Assembly: GCA_034520215.1 (NCBI GenBank)
Contig: JAXHNR010000001.1
Location: 1,044,560 to 1,108,559 of the forward strand
Reading direction: 5' to 3'
Source: Candidatus Krumholzibacteriota bacterium
Lineage (GTDB): Bacteria > Krumholzibacteriota > Krumholzibacteriia > Krumholzibacteriales > WJIX01
Length of the DNA stretch: 64,000 nt
A model generated the notes under the pieces. That model made no database searches, was not told the origin of the DNA, and saw only the letters and a list, made by a program, of their open reading frames with translations. Below are positions 2,676 to 45,593 of the stretch, one piece after another; the first letter of the stretch is position 1, and every line of letters begins with the position of its first letter. The position numbers and the translations under genes are program-made.

Positions 2676-2761
2676 TTCTGCTACCTCCCTTTATTAAATT
2701 AAAATATATAGTTATTCTCGATTTTACAAGTTATTAATAAAATTAATCACTTTATAATAAC

Positions 2762-3072
2762 GTGGAGTTTCCCCAATTTTTATAACCTATAAGGTAGTCG
2801 ATGATTTGTAACAGTATGCAGCTGATTAATATTTTCAAAATCGTGGTCGATTTCCCCGGCGAGGGAATCGTACGCTCTGCGCCTTGGGCTCGCTCTTTCT
2901 GCCCCTTCGGGCCAGAAATCCTTGCCCGCTCGCCACTCGGCGAGGGTTTTGAAAATATCAATCAGCCGCACTCATCAGCAATGAAAGCCCTATTCCACTT
3001 ACCAATCCTGATAACTGATTGTATCTCGCAATGTTATTATAATACTTGCCGAATTTTCAGAGGGAACTCCAA
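2762..3072. mobile_element. MITE-like element, copy 1 (about 311 bp)
   Basis: First of three near-identical copies in the window, all in the same orientation. The ends are GTGGAGTTTCCCC and an imperfect inverse (GAGGGAACTCCAA). The 8-bp sequence ATAATAAC is found immediately on both sides (2754-2761 and 3073-3080), as expected for a target-site duplication. Inside, a 24-bp inverted repeat containing TTTTCAAAA/TTTTGAAAA encloses a GC-rich core with three hairpins, one with a TTCG loop. No credible protein is encoded. The element fills the space between two divergent genes (2675 and 3138) and accounts for most of that 462-bp gene-free stretch. Confidence 0.85.
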
Positions 3073-3137
3073 ATAATAACTAATTGACATTATATTTCTG
3101 TTATGAGAAACTGGAAACTACTATATAAGGAGTAAAA

Positions 3138-5603
3138 ATGATCAGATTTATAAGAAGCGGTATAATCGCTGCTGCGTTACTGATCATTATACTAGGGTAT
3201 TTTGGACTAGAAGATTTCTTAGAATCCCCTTCTCTCGGAATCAAAGACCATAACCTCGAAATCATAGAAATTGAAGAAGACGGGTCTAACCTTAACTCAT
3301 CACTGAAAATAGGCGATCTTATCGTAGCTGTTAACGGTACCAGGGTTAACAATATGAATCACTATAAATACTTGATTTTCAGAAATACTAACTTAATCCC
3401 CTTTATTTTTACAGTTAAGCGAAACGGTGAACTTATAGATATCAAAGTAAGAGTTGAAAAACGATCGATCGCCAAGAAACTTCAAAGATTCGGGTTAATT
3501 ATCTCCGCGTTGAGCTTTATTACGGCGGGTTTTGTGGTTATTCGAAAACGCAGTGATATTATGGGGATTCTTTTCTCGATGAATTGCCTTGTGATGGCCT
3601 TTCTTTTTACGGACAGACCGGTTGTATCGTCAGATATTCTTCATATCGGCGGAGAGTTGATATATGACCTTCTGTTTATTTTTATGCCGGCCTTTTTCCT
3701 CCATTTCTTTCTCATGTTCCCGGGACGTGTTATTAAAACGGGAAGCACACGTTACAAAGCGGAGAAATACCTCTACTACCCGCCTACTATAATATACGCT
3801 ATAAGTTTTATTCTCTCTCTAGCTAACTATAATTCCACAGTCAGCAGGTCTATTATTCATTTTCACGAAACTATTACATCTTTATACTGGATGTTCTACG
3901 CGATATTAATCCCCGTAATTTTTATTCGGTCCTACAGGGCTTCCCCCAAAGCACTCAAAACAAAATTCCGGATAGTGATTTTCGGCGTTGCTACAGGAAT
4001 ACTTCCAATGGCGGTGATGCTTTTTGTTATGCATGTCAAACCAATTTCTGTCTCTTACAATTATCTGTATCTCTCCTGGATTTCACTGTCGTTTATTTCA
4101 ATAGCTTTTAGTTGGGCGATTCTAAAACAAGACGCGTTTAATCTGAGATTGGTTTTAAAGAGAGTGATCGTATATCTCGTTATTCCGCTGCTATTTACAG
4201 CAGTTTATTATGTTATCAATCAAATATCGGAAAGTAAAACCGCTCAGCTTCTTGATTTGAATCAGTACTATTTTTCGGCAATAGCGATAATCTTTTTCGC
4301 GGTTATCTTCGTTCCCGCGAGATCTATGGTTTTCAGTATATTTGACAGATATTCCTACCACAAGCGCGGAGATTTAAAGAGATCCCTCATGGAATTTTCA
4401 CATAATATCCGTTCGTATAAAAGCGCTGAAGGGATTATAAGTTGTGTTGCAATAGAGATAGTAAGTATCTTTCAGCCTGAAAGTGTCCAGGTATTCTTAT
4501 CAAGAGATGACTTTCATTTTGAGCTTAGTTATATATATCCGGAGGATAAAGAAATAGTAGTAAAAAAACTGCCTAAGAAAATTGAATTGCTCCGTGAGAC
4601 CAAAAAAAAGAAATCCCCTTTAATGCTTGAATATTTTGACTCTATGTGGGTCAAGTATAAGTTCGATAGAATTTCGCGCGAATTTGTCAATTTAAACAAA
4701 AATTCTACTATTGTAGCTATATCAGTAGATGATGTTTTGAAAGGGTTTATTTTAGCGGGGCCTAAAATATCCGGAGGCATATATACGAGCGAGGATTCGG
4801 AACTGCTGAATTTTCTTGGAGAGAGAACTGCCGCTTCTTTGAGAAATTTGGAATTATCTCGTATCAACCTCGAGAAAGATGAACTCGATAACGAAATCAG
4901 GATAGCAAGCGTAATCCAGAAGAAACTTCTACCGGGTTCACCCCCCACTCTGCGCGGGGCGCAAATCGCGGCTAAAATCAAAACAAGCAAGCAAGTTGGA
5001 GGAGATTTCTACGATTTCTTCGACATGGGGGCGGGGATTACAGGGCTCGCTGTATCAGATGTCGCCGGGAAGGGAATACCCGCTGCTTTCCTCATGTCCA
5101 CGATTCAGGCTTCTCTAAGTGCTCAGACTCAGTTAAAACGTAAATGTGCCGATGTAGTTTACTACTTGAATAACAACCTATTTGAAAAGAGCGACACTAT
5201 TCGCCATGCAACTTTATTCTATGCTCTATACGATGAACGAACAGGTATACTCAATTATACAAACGCTGGAGCCGTACCTCCGGTAATTATCAAACGAAAC
5301 GGTAAAATAGAAAGATTGAAAAGAGGGGGCCTTGTTCTCGGGATTGAAAAAAATACTACCTATCTTGAAGGGGCGGTCAAATTAAAGAGTGGCGATCTGC
5401 TCGCGGCGTTTACGGATGGAGTAATTGATCAGGAGGATGATGAAGGGAATTATTTCGGATTCGAAAGATTTCTTGGATTCATGGTTGAGAATTACCGGCT
5501 TAGTTTAGATAGATTGATTGATAAATTATTCGACTGCTTAGAGGATTTTGGCAATAAAAAAATAAAGGACGATACTACGGTTATAATTTTAAAAAAGAAT
5601 TAA
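3138..5603 (+). CDS. Membrane SpoIIE-type PP2C phosphatase with PDZ-like and GAF-like domains
   Basis: An 821-residue predicted signalling Ser/Thr phosphatase. Residues 6-24 are a membrane helix. Residues about 31-106 form a PDZ-like domain (GDLIVAVNGTRV at 59-70), predicted outside the cytoplasm. A block of several hydrophobic helices covers about 115-390, followed by a GAF-like region and a long helix. The C-terminal PP2C/SpoIIE domain keeps the metal-binding acidic residues: GGDFYDF near 620, SDVAGKGIPAA near 641, FTDGVID near 758 and DDTTVIIL at the end. Such enzymes usually dephosphorylate anti-anti-sigma proteins; no partner gene is adjacent, so the target is unknown. AAGGAG lies 5 nt before the ATG. 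Mobile element copy 1 ends 66 bp upstream of the start. Confidence 0.9.
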   Translation: MIRFIRSGIIAAALLIIILGYFGLEDFLESPSLGIKDHNLEIIEIEEDGSNLNSSLKIGDLIVAVNGTRVNNMNHYKYLIFRNTNLIPFIFTVKRNGELIDIKVRVEKRSIAKKLQRFGLIISALSFITAGFVVIRKRSDIMGILFSMNCLVMAFLFTDRPVVSSDILHIGGELIYDLLFIFMPAFFLHFFLMFPGRVIKTGSTRYKAEKYLYYPPTIIYAISFILSLANYNSTVSRSIIHFHETITSLYWMFYAILIPVIFIRSYRASPKALKTKFRIVIFGVATGILPMAVMLFVMHVKPISVSYNYLYLSWISLSFISIAFSWAILKQDAFNLRLVLKRVIVYLVIPLLFTAVYYVINQISESKTAQLLDLNQYYFSAIAIIFFAVIFVPARSMVFSIFDRYSYHKRGDLKRSLMEFSHNIRSYKSAEGIISCVAIEIVSIFQPESVQVFLSRDDFHFELSYIYPEDKEIVVKKLPKKIELLRETKKKKSPLMLEYFDSMWVKYKFDRISREFVNLNKNSTIVAISVDDVLKGFILAGPKISGGIYTSEDSELLNFLGERTAASLRNLELSRINLEKDELDNEIRIASVIQKKLLPGSPPTLRGAQIAAKIKTSKQVGGDFYDFFDMGAGITGLAVSDVAGKGIPAAFLMSTIQASLSAQTQLKRKCADVVYYLNNNLFEKSDTIRHATLFYALYDERTGILNYTNAGAVPPVIIKRNGKIERLKRGGLVLGIEKNTTYLEGAVKLKSGDLLAAFTDGVIDQEDDEGNYFGFERFLGFMVENYRLSLDRLIDKLFDCLEDFGNKKIKDDTTVIILKKN

Positions 5604-24897: not shown

Positions 24898-26562
24898 TTA
24901 AGACTGTGATGCTTTTTCCAGTTTTTTCATCACGGAAAATATCAGTATTGCGGAAAGTAAACACATTACAATGAGAAGAAGGAAGAACTGCCACAATTCC
25001 CACAGATCCCAGAAATAACCAACAAGACCGGCAAGCAGATTCCCGACTGCTGTTGCGGCAAGCCAGCCTCCCTGCATAGTTCCTTTATATTTCGGAGGCG
25101 ACACCTTCGAAACAAAGGAAATACCCATTGGAGAGAGACAAAGTTCAGCAATCGTTACTGTAAAATATGTTCCTATGAGCCAGTATGGGCTTCTCGTAAC
25201 ATCTGAAACTCCGCCCGCTAGCTCGTGTGGTGATTTCAAGCCTATAGAAGCTATCATCATAAATCCGAAAGAAATACCGGTAATAATCATCCCGATACCG
25301 ATCTTCCTGGGTGTACTGGGTTCCTTGCCTTTCTTCTGTAGAAATGAGAAGAACCCAATTACAACTGGAGTCAGAAAGACTATAAAGATCGGATTGAAAT
25401 GCTGGAACATCTGAGGGCTTATATCCATAGAATCATTATAACCGCTTATAACCCAGTAGCTGACAATGAAACCTACAAAAAACAAAATTCCGCCGATAAT
25501 TTTCTCATTCTTTTTGCTTGCTTTCCTCAAGAGAAATACAAGCCCGATCAATGTAACTATAACCGGCAGAAAAGATTTCAGACTGAAGAATGTATAGGTT
25601 ATATCGCTTACTTTGCTGGCCGTGTAATCCCTCGCGAAGATACTCAGTGTGAATCCATTCTGGTGGAAAGTCATCCAGAAGAACATTACGACGAAGAAAA
25701 CAAAGTAAAGGGCGAAGAGGCGGTCTTTGGTCTGCCTTGGTGAAAGTTCTACGACCTGATCCTTATGTTCCTCGCTCGCCGCTTTCTGTTTCTCTGTCAT
25801 ATCGGCGACTTTATAGTGTTTTTTAAAAAACACAAATATGACCAGCGAAACTACCATGCTGACGGCAGCCACAGCGAATGCGCCGTTATAAGCTGTACTT
25901 ACACTTTCTAAATAGTTTTTACAGAATATCCCCAAGTCCGCGGGAACAGTGCCTAATTGAATTTTAGCAAGATTCATAAGCTCGGTTGTATTTTGAAGAT
26001 GCCCGCCTATATATTTATTGCCCAGATCCACAATCTTCTGGTTATAAGAAAAGCCGTCTTTTCCAAGTATCCAGTTAATGGCCGCAGTGGCGGCAGATGG
26101 CGCGAAGAAGGCACCGATATTAATGCCCATGTAGAAAATATTAAAGGCGTAATCGCGTACATGCTCATATTTCGGATCGTCGTACATGTTTCCGACAAGA
26201 GCTTGCAGGTTACCCTTAAATAAACCGGTACCAGCCGCTATTACAAACAGGGCAATAGCAAGGAGAATTACACCTTTGTCCGGAATAGCAAGAAGTGCGT
26301 ATCCGGCAAATAAAACAACAGTACCAATAACTATTGTTTTACCGTATCCCAGCCATTGGTCGGCAATAATGCCGCCGAAAAGTGGAAGGAAATAAATGCC
26401 AAAAAGAAAAGCCCCATAGACAAGGCCGGCTGTGTGAGCGTCCCACTTGAATGTTGCTTGAAGATAGAAAACAAAGATTGAAAGCATCGTGTAGTAACCG
26501 AAACGCTCGCCCATATTGGCGAAGAAGGCTACAAACAATCCTTTCGGGTGGTCTTTAAGCAT
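24898..26562 (-). CDS. POT-family proton-coupled oligopeptide transporter
   Basis: A 554-residue inner-membrane carrier with 12-14 hydrophobic helices of the major facilitator fold. Family motifs are GERFGYY in the first helix, FYMGINIGAFFAPS, and the C-terminal ELCLSPMGISFVSKVSP. The usual ExxERF motif reads NMGERF, so the first, proton-linked Glu is Asn; a subgroup in Bacteroidetes-like bacteria shares this. It probably imports di/tripeptides. AAGGAG lies 7 nt upstream of the ATG. Mobile element copy 2 begins 84 bp upstream of the start codon. Confidence 0.93.
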   Translation of the reverse strand: MLKDHPKGLFVAFFANMGERFGYYTMLSIFVFYLQATFKWDAHTAGLVYGAFLFGIYFLPLFGGIIADQWLGYGKTIVIGTVVLFAGYALLAIPDKGVILLAIALFVIAAGTGLFKGNLQALVGNMYDDPKYEHVRDYAFNIFYMGINIGAFFAPSAATAAINWILGKDGFSYNQKIVDLGNKYIGGHLQNTTELMNLAKIQLGTVPADLGIFCKNYLESVSTAYNGAFAVAAVSMVVSLVIFVFFKKHYKVADMTEKQKAASEEHKDQVVELSPRQTKDRLFALYFVFFVVMFFWMTFHQNGFTLSIFARDYTASKVSDITYTFFSLKSFLPVIVTLIGLVFLLRKASKKNEKIIGGILFFVGFIVSYWVISGYNDSMDISPQMFQHFNPIFIVFLTPVVIGFFSFLQKKGKEPSTPRKIGIGMIITGISFGFMMIASIGLKSPHELAGGVSDVTRSPYWLIGTYFTVTIAELCLSPMGISFVSKVSPPKYKGTMQGGWLAATAVGNLLAGLVGYFWDLWELWQFFLLLIVMCLLSAILIFSVMKKLEKASQS

Positions 26563-26645
26563 ACCCTCTCCTTTAGGATTTAAGAAATACAGAACATTTT
26601 CAATATCGTACTATATTGAAAATAACATTGCAATCAATAAAGTTT

Positions 26646-26955
26646 GTGGAGTTTCCCCAATTTTTATAACCTATAAGGTAGTCGATGATTTGTAACAGTA
26701 TGCGGCTGATTGATATTTTCAAAATCGTGGTCAATTCCCCCGGCGAGGGAATTGTACGCTCTGCACCTCGGGCTCGCTCTTTCTGCCCCTTCGGGCCAGA
26801 AATCCTTGCCCGCTCGCCACTCGGCGAGGGTTTTGAAAATACCAATCAGCCGCACTCATCAGCAATGAAAGCCCTATTCCATTTGCCAATCCTGATAACT
26901 GATTGTATCTCGCAATGTTATTACAATACTTGCCGAAGTTTCGGGGGAACTCCAA
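26646..26955. mobile_element. MITE-like element, copy 2 (about 310 bp)
   Basis: Same element and orientation as the copy at 2762. The left end is GTGGAGTTTCCCC and the right end GGGGGAACTCCAA, with one mismatch in the inverted repeat. ATAAAGTTT (9 bp) flanks it directly on both sides (26637-26645 and 26956-26964), a clear target-site duplication. The 57 bases at the left end match the other copies exactly. It sits in the gap between the GAF-protein gene and the POT gene (26563-26980). The rest of that gap shows nothing else but the POT ribosome site. Confidence 0.88.
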
Positions 26956-26980
26956 ATAAAGTTTTATTGGTATTTAGAAA

Positions 26981-44330: not shown

Positions 44331-45083
44331 TTATCTTTCAGCCACAGGATCGTCTTCCTTAACGTAAAGCCAGATGTCGTTACGGCCGGACATCTGGCGT
44401 GCCATGATAAAACCATCACGCACGAGTTCTAAAATGGCTATTAAAGTAACGATGATCTCTATCCTTCCGCCTACGTCTTCAAAAAGTTCTGTGAATAGGA
44501 CTTCAGAATTACCGCTTAGTTTATCCTTTATTAGTGAAATCTTTTCATCGACGGTGAATTTCTCGATCTCAACATTATATTTAATCTCTTCTTTTAAATC
44601 CTTCAAAATAGTCTTAAAAGCATCCATAAGATCAAATAGTGAAAGCTCTATTGTTTCGGAATCACCTTCTTCTCTTACATAGTCAGGGACAGGGCGAACA
44701 AAAACATTCCTTCTTCTTGTTTCCCTGCCGGCAAGATGATCGGCGGCTTTTTTGAATTTTTTGTATTCTATCAAATTCTTTACAAGATCTTCTCTGGGAT
44801 CTTCATCTTCATCCTCGATTTCTCTTTTTGGCAGAAGCATCTGAACTTTTATCCTCATGAGAGTAGCTGCCATAACGAAGAACTCTCCTGCTACTTCGAG
44901 TTCAAGTTCTTTCATCATATCAATATAGGAAAGGTACTCACGTGTTATATGTGATATAGGTATATCGTAAATGTTTATCTTGTCTCTTCGAATAAGATGA
45001 AGAAGAAGGTCAAGGGGTCCTTCAAAATGATCCAGCCTTACCTGATATGCCGTTTCTTTTCTTTTTGATTCTTTTTCAAACAT
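44331..45083 (-). CDS. scpA: Segregation and condensation protein A
   Basis: Kleisin subunit of bacterial condensin, 250 residues. The N-terminal SMC-binding part has YQVRLDHFEGPLDLLLHLIR and INIYDIPISHITREYLSYI. The C-terminal winged helix has VTLIAILELVRDGFIMARQ. It heads the scpA-scpB-rluB-hisC-cmk/plsC-ispH-rpsA unit. Mobile element copy 3 begins 87 bp upstream of the start codon, so the promoter lies in that gap or inside the element. Confidence 0.96.
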   Translation of the reverse strand: MFEKESKRKETAYQVRLDHFEGPLDLLLHLIRRDKINIYDIPISHITREYLSYIDMMKELELEVAGEFFVMAATLMRIKVQMLLPKREIEDEDEDPREDLVKNLIEYKKFKKAADHLAGRETRRRNVFVRPVPDYVREEGDSETIELSLFDLMDAFKTILKDLKEEIKYNVEIEKFTVDEKISLIKDKLSGNSEVLFTELFEDVGGRIEIIVTLIAILELVRDGFIMARQMSGRNDIWLYVKEDDPVAER

Positions 45084-45169
45084 AAGATATCTTTCCGCCT
45101 GTCTCGCAAAAGGGAATTCCCCGATGGATGGTAAGCTAACGGGGTGTCTATGTCAACTTTTTAGTTTAT

Positions 45170-45475
45170 TTGGAGTTTCCCCAATTTTTATAACCTATAA
45201 GGTAGTCGATGATTTGTAACAGTATGCGGCTGATTGATATTTTCAAAATCGTTGTCGGTTTCCCCGGCGAGAAAACCGCAACTCCCACCTCGGGCTCGCT
45301 CTTTCTGCCCCTTCGGGCCAGAAATCCTTGCCCGCTCGCCCTCCGGAGGGTTTTGAAAATATCATTCAGCCGCACTCATCAGCAATGAAAGCCCTATTCC
45401 ACTTACCAATCCTGATAACTGATTGTATCTCGCAATGTTATTACAATACTTGCCGGATTTTCGGGGAAACTCCAC
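45170..45475. mobile_element. MITE-like element, copy 3 (about 306 bp)
   Basis: Same element and orientation as those at 2762 and 26646. Its terminal repeats pair perfectly over 12 bp (TGGAGTTTCCCC and GGGGAAACTCCA). TTTAGTTTAT flanks it (45160-45169 and 45476-45485), a duplication of up to 10 bp. The core differs most from the other copies, but both core hairpins are preserved by compensating changes. The surrounding gap 45084-45593 holds nothing else I can identify. Confidence 0.88.
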
Positions 45476-45593
45476 TTTAGTTTATAGTCTGTTTTACTGA
45501 GTTTAGAATTTTTTTATATATGCGATAACAGGTATTACCAAAGGAAAACAGGACTGCACGGTAAGAGAAAATATTGCTTTTATTTGAAGATCT

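Follow-up and report, generated by a model that had tools for sequence, protein, structure and literature searches.

The window, the whole 64,000-nucleotide stretch of DNA analysed here, carries three copies of a genome-wide family of MITEs whose members lie at a fixed distance just upstream of predicted sigma-70-like promoters and are oriented according to the type of their ends. The DNA sequence gives the family itself, its target duplications, empty sites in relatives, its position and orientation relative to the predicted promoters, and ends shared with an insertion sequence (IS) of which the same genome holds broken copies. Very probably the MITEs are derivatives of this IS, a diverged IS4-type element, whose transposase, acting in trans, would insert them with the TGGA end facing promoters, just upstream of the -35 box.

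The window copies are 304–309 bp long with 12-bp inverted ends, and each is flanked by its own, different duplication (Table 1), the flanking repeat of copy 2 reading (A)ATAAAGTTT. The sequence-only reading had reported three copies with such ends and flanking duplications, and the sequence confirmed all of them in place. All three left ends match the 12-base sequence TGGAGTTTCCCC exactly, and the right ends of copies 1, 2 and 3 differ from it by two, one and zero mismatches, respectively. No ORF of 100 aa was found wholly within a window copy, and an Rfam scan of the window at the gathering score returned four tRNAs only and assigned the MITE to no family. Copy 1 belongs to the class with two TGGA ends and has its -35-like box on the right; this -35 is good, and a poor -10 (GAAACT) follows it at spacing 17. 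In copies 2 and 3 the -35 is on the left, and the promoter score of copy 2 is 8, below the line of 8.5 used in the counts given later.

Table 1 Positions in the window of the three MITE copies, their target duplications and the promoter-like sequences beside them.
Feature	Position	Strand	Sequence or context
MITE copy 1 (family F1)	2763..3071	+	ends TGGAGTTTCCCC / GAGGGAACTCCA
Left target duplication, copy 1	2754..2761		ATAATAAC
Right target duplication, copy 1	3073..3080		ATAATAAC
TTGACA, -35-like box outside copy 1 right end	3084..3089	+	towards gene 3138-5603 (+)
MITE copy 2 (family F1)	26647..26954	+	
Left target duplication, copy 2	26637..26645		ATAAAGTTT
Right target duplication, copy 2	26956..26964		ATAAAGTTT
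Promoter-like TTGCAA-17-TACGAT near copy 2	26605..26633	-	towards peptide-symporter gene 24898-26562 (-)
MITE copy 3 (family F1)	45171..45474	+	
Left target duplication, copy 3	45160..45169		TTTAGTTTAT
Right target duplication, copy 3	45476..45485		TTTAGTTTAT
Promoter-like TTGACA-17-TACCAT near copy 3	45128..45156	-	towards gene 44331-45083 (-)

Searches with left-end patterns revised the initial description of a three-copy element to about 100 members in the genome. BLAST of copy 1 against its own genome matched at all 40 of the scored candidates (127 candidates in all) and also gave short reverse matches, which come from the internal hairpin. A 24-base left-end pattern allowing up to three mismatches hit 70 places with no control match, and a 20-base pattern hit 109 places with one. 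The catalogue used below comprises 101 distinct left ends, from about 100 of the 109 places among the matches listed and from the fetched flanks, and includes two source-IS remnants (L068 and L215); the pattern picks TGGA-type left ends, and the catalogue is thus built from one end type. Sixty left ends belong to F1, the family of the window copies, 27 to F2, which has another interior, and 14 to others. Many copies are truncated at the right. TGGA-type ends read KTGGA from outside and the AGGA-type ends of MITEs CAGGAC, and the base between the terminal T and the duplication is T in 49, G in 41, C in 10 and A in one of the 101 left ends. Among relatives, three genomes of the same genus each carry a single element (L096, L097 and L100) that is about 125 bp long and combines similar ends with a different interior, and a genome of the same family (G004) carries F1-like and F3-like elements. 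The MutS encoded in the window has its closest matches in metagenome-derived genomes labelled 'bacterium AUK263' (75%), Candidatus Latescibacterota CSMAG_2999 (76%, partial) and Candidatus Krumholzibacteriota (60%), and the host probably belongs to the Krumholzibacteriota or a neighbouring group.

The interiors of F1, F2 and F3 (L035, L110, L114) have hairpin stems that differ in sequence within a common architecture. Between otherwise constant flanks the palindrome at the centre is found either way round, in F1 (L049, L047 and L067) as well as in F2 (L205, L207 and L214 compared with L031), as if it had been flipped via recombination across its inverted arms; by a string test, 38 F1 copies have it one way, three the other way, and 19 were undecided. 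One locus, L051 (1955 (+) to 804 (-)), is a recombinant bounded by two left ends, one of F2 and the other of F1, and is without a target duplication. At L032 (around 8571 (+) and 2945 (-)), L022 and L021, elements stand end to end only about 12 bp apart, possibly through repeated use of one target. Stacked insertion as a wider pattern had no support in a loose test, which looked for end-like sequence up to 40 bp outside the elements and was positive at 17 of 166 flanks and in 21 of 166 control windows, although L021, L022 and L032 are exact end-to-end cases.

A usable right end was recognised in 65 of the 101 elements, and 48 of these 65 have a target duplication, four of the 48 with one mismatch admitted. 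When left and right flanks were re-paired at random in 500 trials, 0.4 duplications were seen on average and never more than four, against the 48 observed. The duplication length of 8–10 bp proposed from the window holds for the window copies; genome-wide the lengths are mostly 9 bp (20/48) or 10 bp (12/48), with five duplications each of 8 and 11 bp, four of 12 bp, and one each of 13 and 14 bp.

Outside the left ends, TTGTCAA and TATAAT-like blocks recur at a constant distance and resemble a sigma-70-like promoter pointing away from the element. Flanks were scored outward for TTGACA with at most one mismatch, a spacing of 16–18, and TATAAT with at most two mismatches. A -35/-10 pair with the -35 starting 11–18 bp outside was present at 41 of the 101 left ends, compared with 0.8 expected from the background of positions 40–259 of the same flanks and with a mean of 1.6 and a maximum of nine in 500 trials on composition-shuffled flanks. 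TTGACA alone gave 53/101 at 11–18 bp with at most one mismatch (3–7 in other 8-bp bins) and 83/101 with at most two (32–44 in other bins), the other 18 left ends having no -35-like hexamer there. When the 83 flanks were aligned on the -35 alone, a -10 emerged at spacing 17 (T 0.67, A 0.55, last T 0.55). A combined promoter score of at least 8.5 was reached at 58 of the 101 left ends and in 2.4% of 1717 control windows. These consensus matches place the elements just upstream of predicted sigma-70-like promoters at a fixed distance. The duplication occupies the gap that separates the element from the -35 box and covers about positions -39 to -48 of the predicted promoter, a region to which the alpha C-terminal domain binds.

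An ordinary MITE without target preference would insert at random, and selection would keep the copies at harmless sites upstream of promoters. Insertions into genes and promoters are expected to be selected against, and the copies do lie near gene starts, an outward open frame starting within 300 bp of 71 of the 101 left ends. Against such a history, 76 of the 83 left ends with a -35 (at most two mismatches) have it starting at 12–15 bp, and the promoter signal is orientation-specific and tied to end type. Survival alone predicts neither the fixed distance nor the end-type rule, and we consider random insertion improbable.

The end-type rule was apparent at the right ends, which were counted in the 65 of 101 elements where one was recognised, the other 36 being left out. 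A promoter pair at 11–18 bp was found outside 11 of 31 right ends of the TGGA type and one of 34 of the AGGA type (Fisher p=0.0009), and TTGACA alone outside 14/31 and 4/34, respectively (p=0.005). Where a duplication was present, elements with two TGGA ends reached the score of 8.5 on the left in 12, on the right in eight, on both sides in one and on neither in three (n=22), and those with one TGGA and one AGGA end on the left in 10, on the right in one and on both sides in none (n=22). With no duplication required, the corresponding counts were left 16, right 14, both five and neither three for two TGGA ends (n=28), and left 16, right two and both none for TGGA plus AGGA ends (n=32); the remaining five of the 65 elements, which end in other bases, fall outside both class counts. 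The TGGA end faces the predicted promoter, and the AGGA end does not.

Orthologous sites without the element were found in relatives for two window copies. For copy 2 the orthologous intergenic region is without it in G002 and G003 (same genus), and for copy 3 the orthologous site is without it in G001 (same genus) and G004. Their flanks are only about 70% alike in nucleotides, so that the single target copy is readable in part, as TTTAGTTT in G001 (copy 3) and as the related TTAAAAGTT in G002 (copy 2). By eye, the empty sites of copy 2 in G002 and G003 have TTGCAA or TTGCAT, a spacing of 17 and TAGAAT, and the TGTCAACTT block is conserved in the empty sites of copy 3 in G001 and G004. The promoter-like sequence is present there without the element, which we count in favour of the promoter-directed insertion proposed here. 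Flanking repeats that proved not to be duplications at such loci would have spoken against the sequence-only reading; at copies 2 and 3 the duplications stood. Movement by transposition, first concluded from the duplications at the three sites, is supported by these duplications together with the empty sites of copies 2 and 3.

Domestication as regulatory elements would be another way to account for the arrangement: copies would be kept because their end, or the hairpin at their centre, tunes or insulates the promoter beside them. The element does contain a strong predicted hairpin (z -4.7), and outward open frames begin 55–150 bp outside 45 of the 101 left ends and 11 of the 31 TGGA right ends. 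However, AGGA-type right ends also have such frames (8/34), relatives are without the element at copies 2 and 3, many copies are truncated and no Rfam family corresponds to it. We judge domestication an unlikely explanation, which could nevertheless be true of some copies alongside target-directed insertion by an IS4-type transposase.

The IS itself was found through its ends. L215, on contig C2 of the same genome, has the end TGGAGTTTCCCCAATTTTT followed by a broken transposase C-terminus and no MITE interior; the transposase fragment has matches in five of 80 genomes of the phylum, its own included, and had no plasmid match and no Pfam or NCBIfam family. An intact transposase gene of 421 aa (194-1459, - strand) was present at L236 in G003, between the ends TGGACATTCCCCAGTTTTT at 176 and AGGACATTCCCCAGTTTTT at 1602, which gives an IS of about 1.43 kb, and G010 has a 79% identical intact transposase with two TGGA-type ends. 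Queried at full length, the transposase matched in six of the 80 phylum genomes, including its own, where all seven matches are on C2 and all are broken or partial. One of these source-IS copies (G000:C2:36417-38790, own genome) is broken by several stops and has a central gap, possibly where another insertion interrupts it. The claim that no transposase lies near the window copies agrees with these searches: all matches to the source transposase and to PF00872 are on C2, and the window is on contig C1. MITE-type ends are shared with transposase-bearing elements at L215, L236 and L234, and the sequence common to MITEs and IS is confined to the ends. The suggested search for a source with the same ends led to the intact transposase between such ends in G003; the target duplication proposed for it was not clear by eye in either of the two intact IS copies, and MITE duplications are mostly 9–10 bp. 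A promoter-like sequence in the transposase-3' flank was seen by eye in L236, L234, L215 and L237 (4/6), was weak in L239 and was absent in L238.

The G003 transposase has the motif D86D123E (spacers 86 and 123) and the YREK signature YLSRWLIEETIRFIK, which fall within the IS4 definitions D(60-110)D(100-150)E and Y(2)R(3)E(6)K, and it scored 35.7 bits against Pfam DDE_Tnp_1 (PF01609; cut-off 23). Its best score against the curated NCBIfam IS4 models was 39.1 bits (cut-off 160), and matches to the IS4, IS701 and IS1634 models were below their cut-offs only. Relatives of the transposase occurred in four plasmid records, at 26–28% identity, and in one unannotated phage record, none was found in viral contigs, and a search by sequence of solved structures gave no match. 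The MITEs were probably moved by this diverged IS4-type transposase, whose copies in their own genome are now broken. Their identification as MITEs is supported by short length, non-coding sequence, inverted ends, duplications, empty orthologous sites and many copies, and also by the full-length element with similar ends in relatives and the broken copies in the same genome.

We regard it as very unlikely that the mobilising enzyme was a Mutator-type transposase, of ISLre2, ISKra4 or IS256 kin. The same distance, an 8–9 bp duplication and end-dependent orientation are described for Mutator-type elements in PMC3942029, and the genome has an IS256-type relic about 120 bp from a matching end. But searches of the genome for ISLre2 and ISKra4 gave no match, one of them being weak in that its control also matched nowhere; the end beside the IS256 relic, at L068, corresponds across about 30 bases to the distal end of the IS4-type element and is better read as a remnant of that IS; and the other IS256-type loci checked are without such ends. 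A Mutator-type transposase between such ends was not found, the transposase there being PF01609. The IS256 relic was rejected as a source after PF00872 fragments in the genome had been examined and the L068 fragment had been searched for in 58 genomes, only L068 having the end. At L068 (1528-1893, G000:C2) the IS256-type relic is fused to the IS4-type distal end, near a single-strand-binding-protein-like gene.

Oriented insertion upstream of promoters is already published for the Mutator-type elements TnGBS, ISLre2 and ISKra4. In Guerillot et al. 2014 (PMC3942029), TnGBS, ISLre2 (p-MULT 3) and part of ISKra4 (p-MULT 4) insert 15–17 bases upstream of the sigma-A -35 with an 8–9 bp duplication; end asymmetry sets their orientation, elements with near-perfect ends occur both ways round, and contact with RNA polymerase is suggested for the targeting. 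The TnGBS papers are cited for motifs upstream of promoters in PMC10433421. The elements described here work like these in promoter-upstream position, duplication and end-set orientation, and we claim no membership; theirs are Mutator-type, whereas here the transposase is an IS4-type DDE enzyme (PF01609, YREK) and nearly all copies are MITEs. The IS4 family is defined by De Palmenaer et al. 2008 (PMC2266710), the available part of which reports strong target-arm conservation in some members and leaves a promoter preference for IS4 unmentioned, the word 'promoter' occurring there 0 times. Our source element resembles the IS4 family in D86D123E, Y(2)R(3)E(6)K, a single ORF and a length of about 1.43 kb, but it lies far below the curated models and has one end that starts with KTGGA, not 5'-CA; a duplication of about one helix turn, as in IS4, is seen in the MITEs and not clearly in the intact IS copies. 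Prokaryotic MITEs such as Correia and MITEAba12, which carry promoters or IHF sites and for which inversion is reported in the case of Correia (PMC10969869), are likewise short and non-autonomous with inverted ends and many copies near genes; in contrast, the element here stands upstream of the host's own promoter-like sequence. What appears to be new is MITEs at a fixed distance upstream of predicted sigma-70-like promoters and oriented by end type. In the literature searched, neither IS4-type elements nor MITEs were reported to insert upstream of promoters, which is weak evidence of absence, subscription papers being mostly outside the scope of the search.

We propose that an IS4-type transposase supplied in trans would bind both MITE ends and insert the element by a staggered cut of about 9–10 bp into DNA just upstream of a sigma-70-type -35 box, at roughly the position of the alpha-subunit C-terminal domain. 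The TGGA-type end would come to lie beside the promoter, with the AGGA-type end on the far side, and elements with two TGGA-type ends would insert either way round. Mobilisation of the MITEs by this transposase, activity of the predicted promoters and a preference exerted during insertion are our inferences; the preference may operate via contact with promoter-bound RNA polymerase or via the sequence or shape of promoter DNA.

We see an even chance that oriented promoter-upstream insertion arose a second time, in an IS4-type DDE transposase and independently of the Mutator-type elements, and that the MITEs placed one and the same DNA block at the alpha-CTD position of dozens of promoters in a single small genome. 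If so, two groups of DDE transposases would share one safe harbour, a few bp upstream of the -35 box. Promoter recognition by a transposase would then be directly testable on about 100 natural sites in one genome, with matched empty sites and a built-in orientation control, and MITE ends could help promoter mapping in uncultured bacteria.
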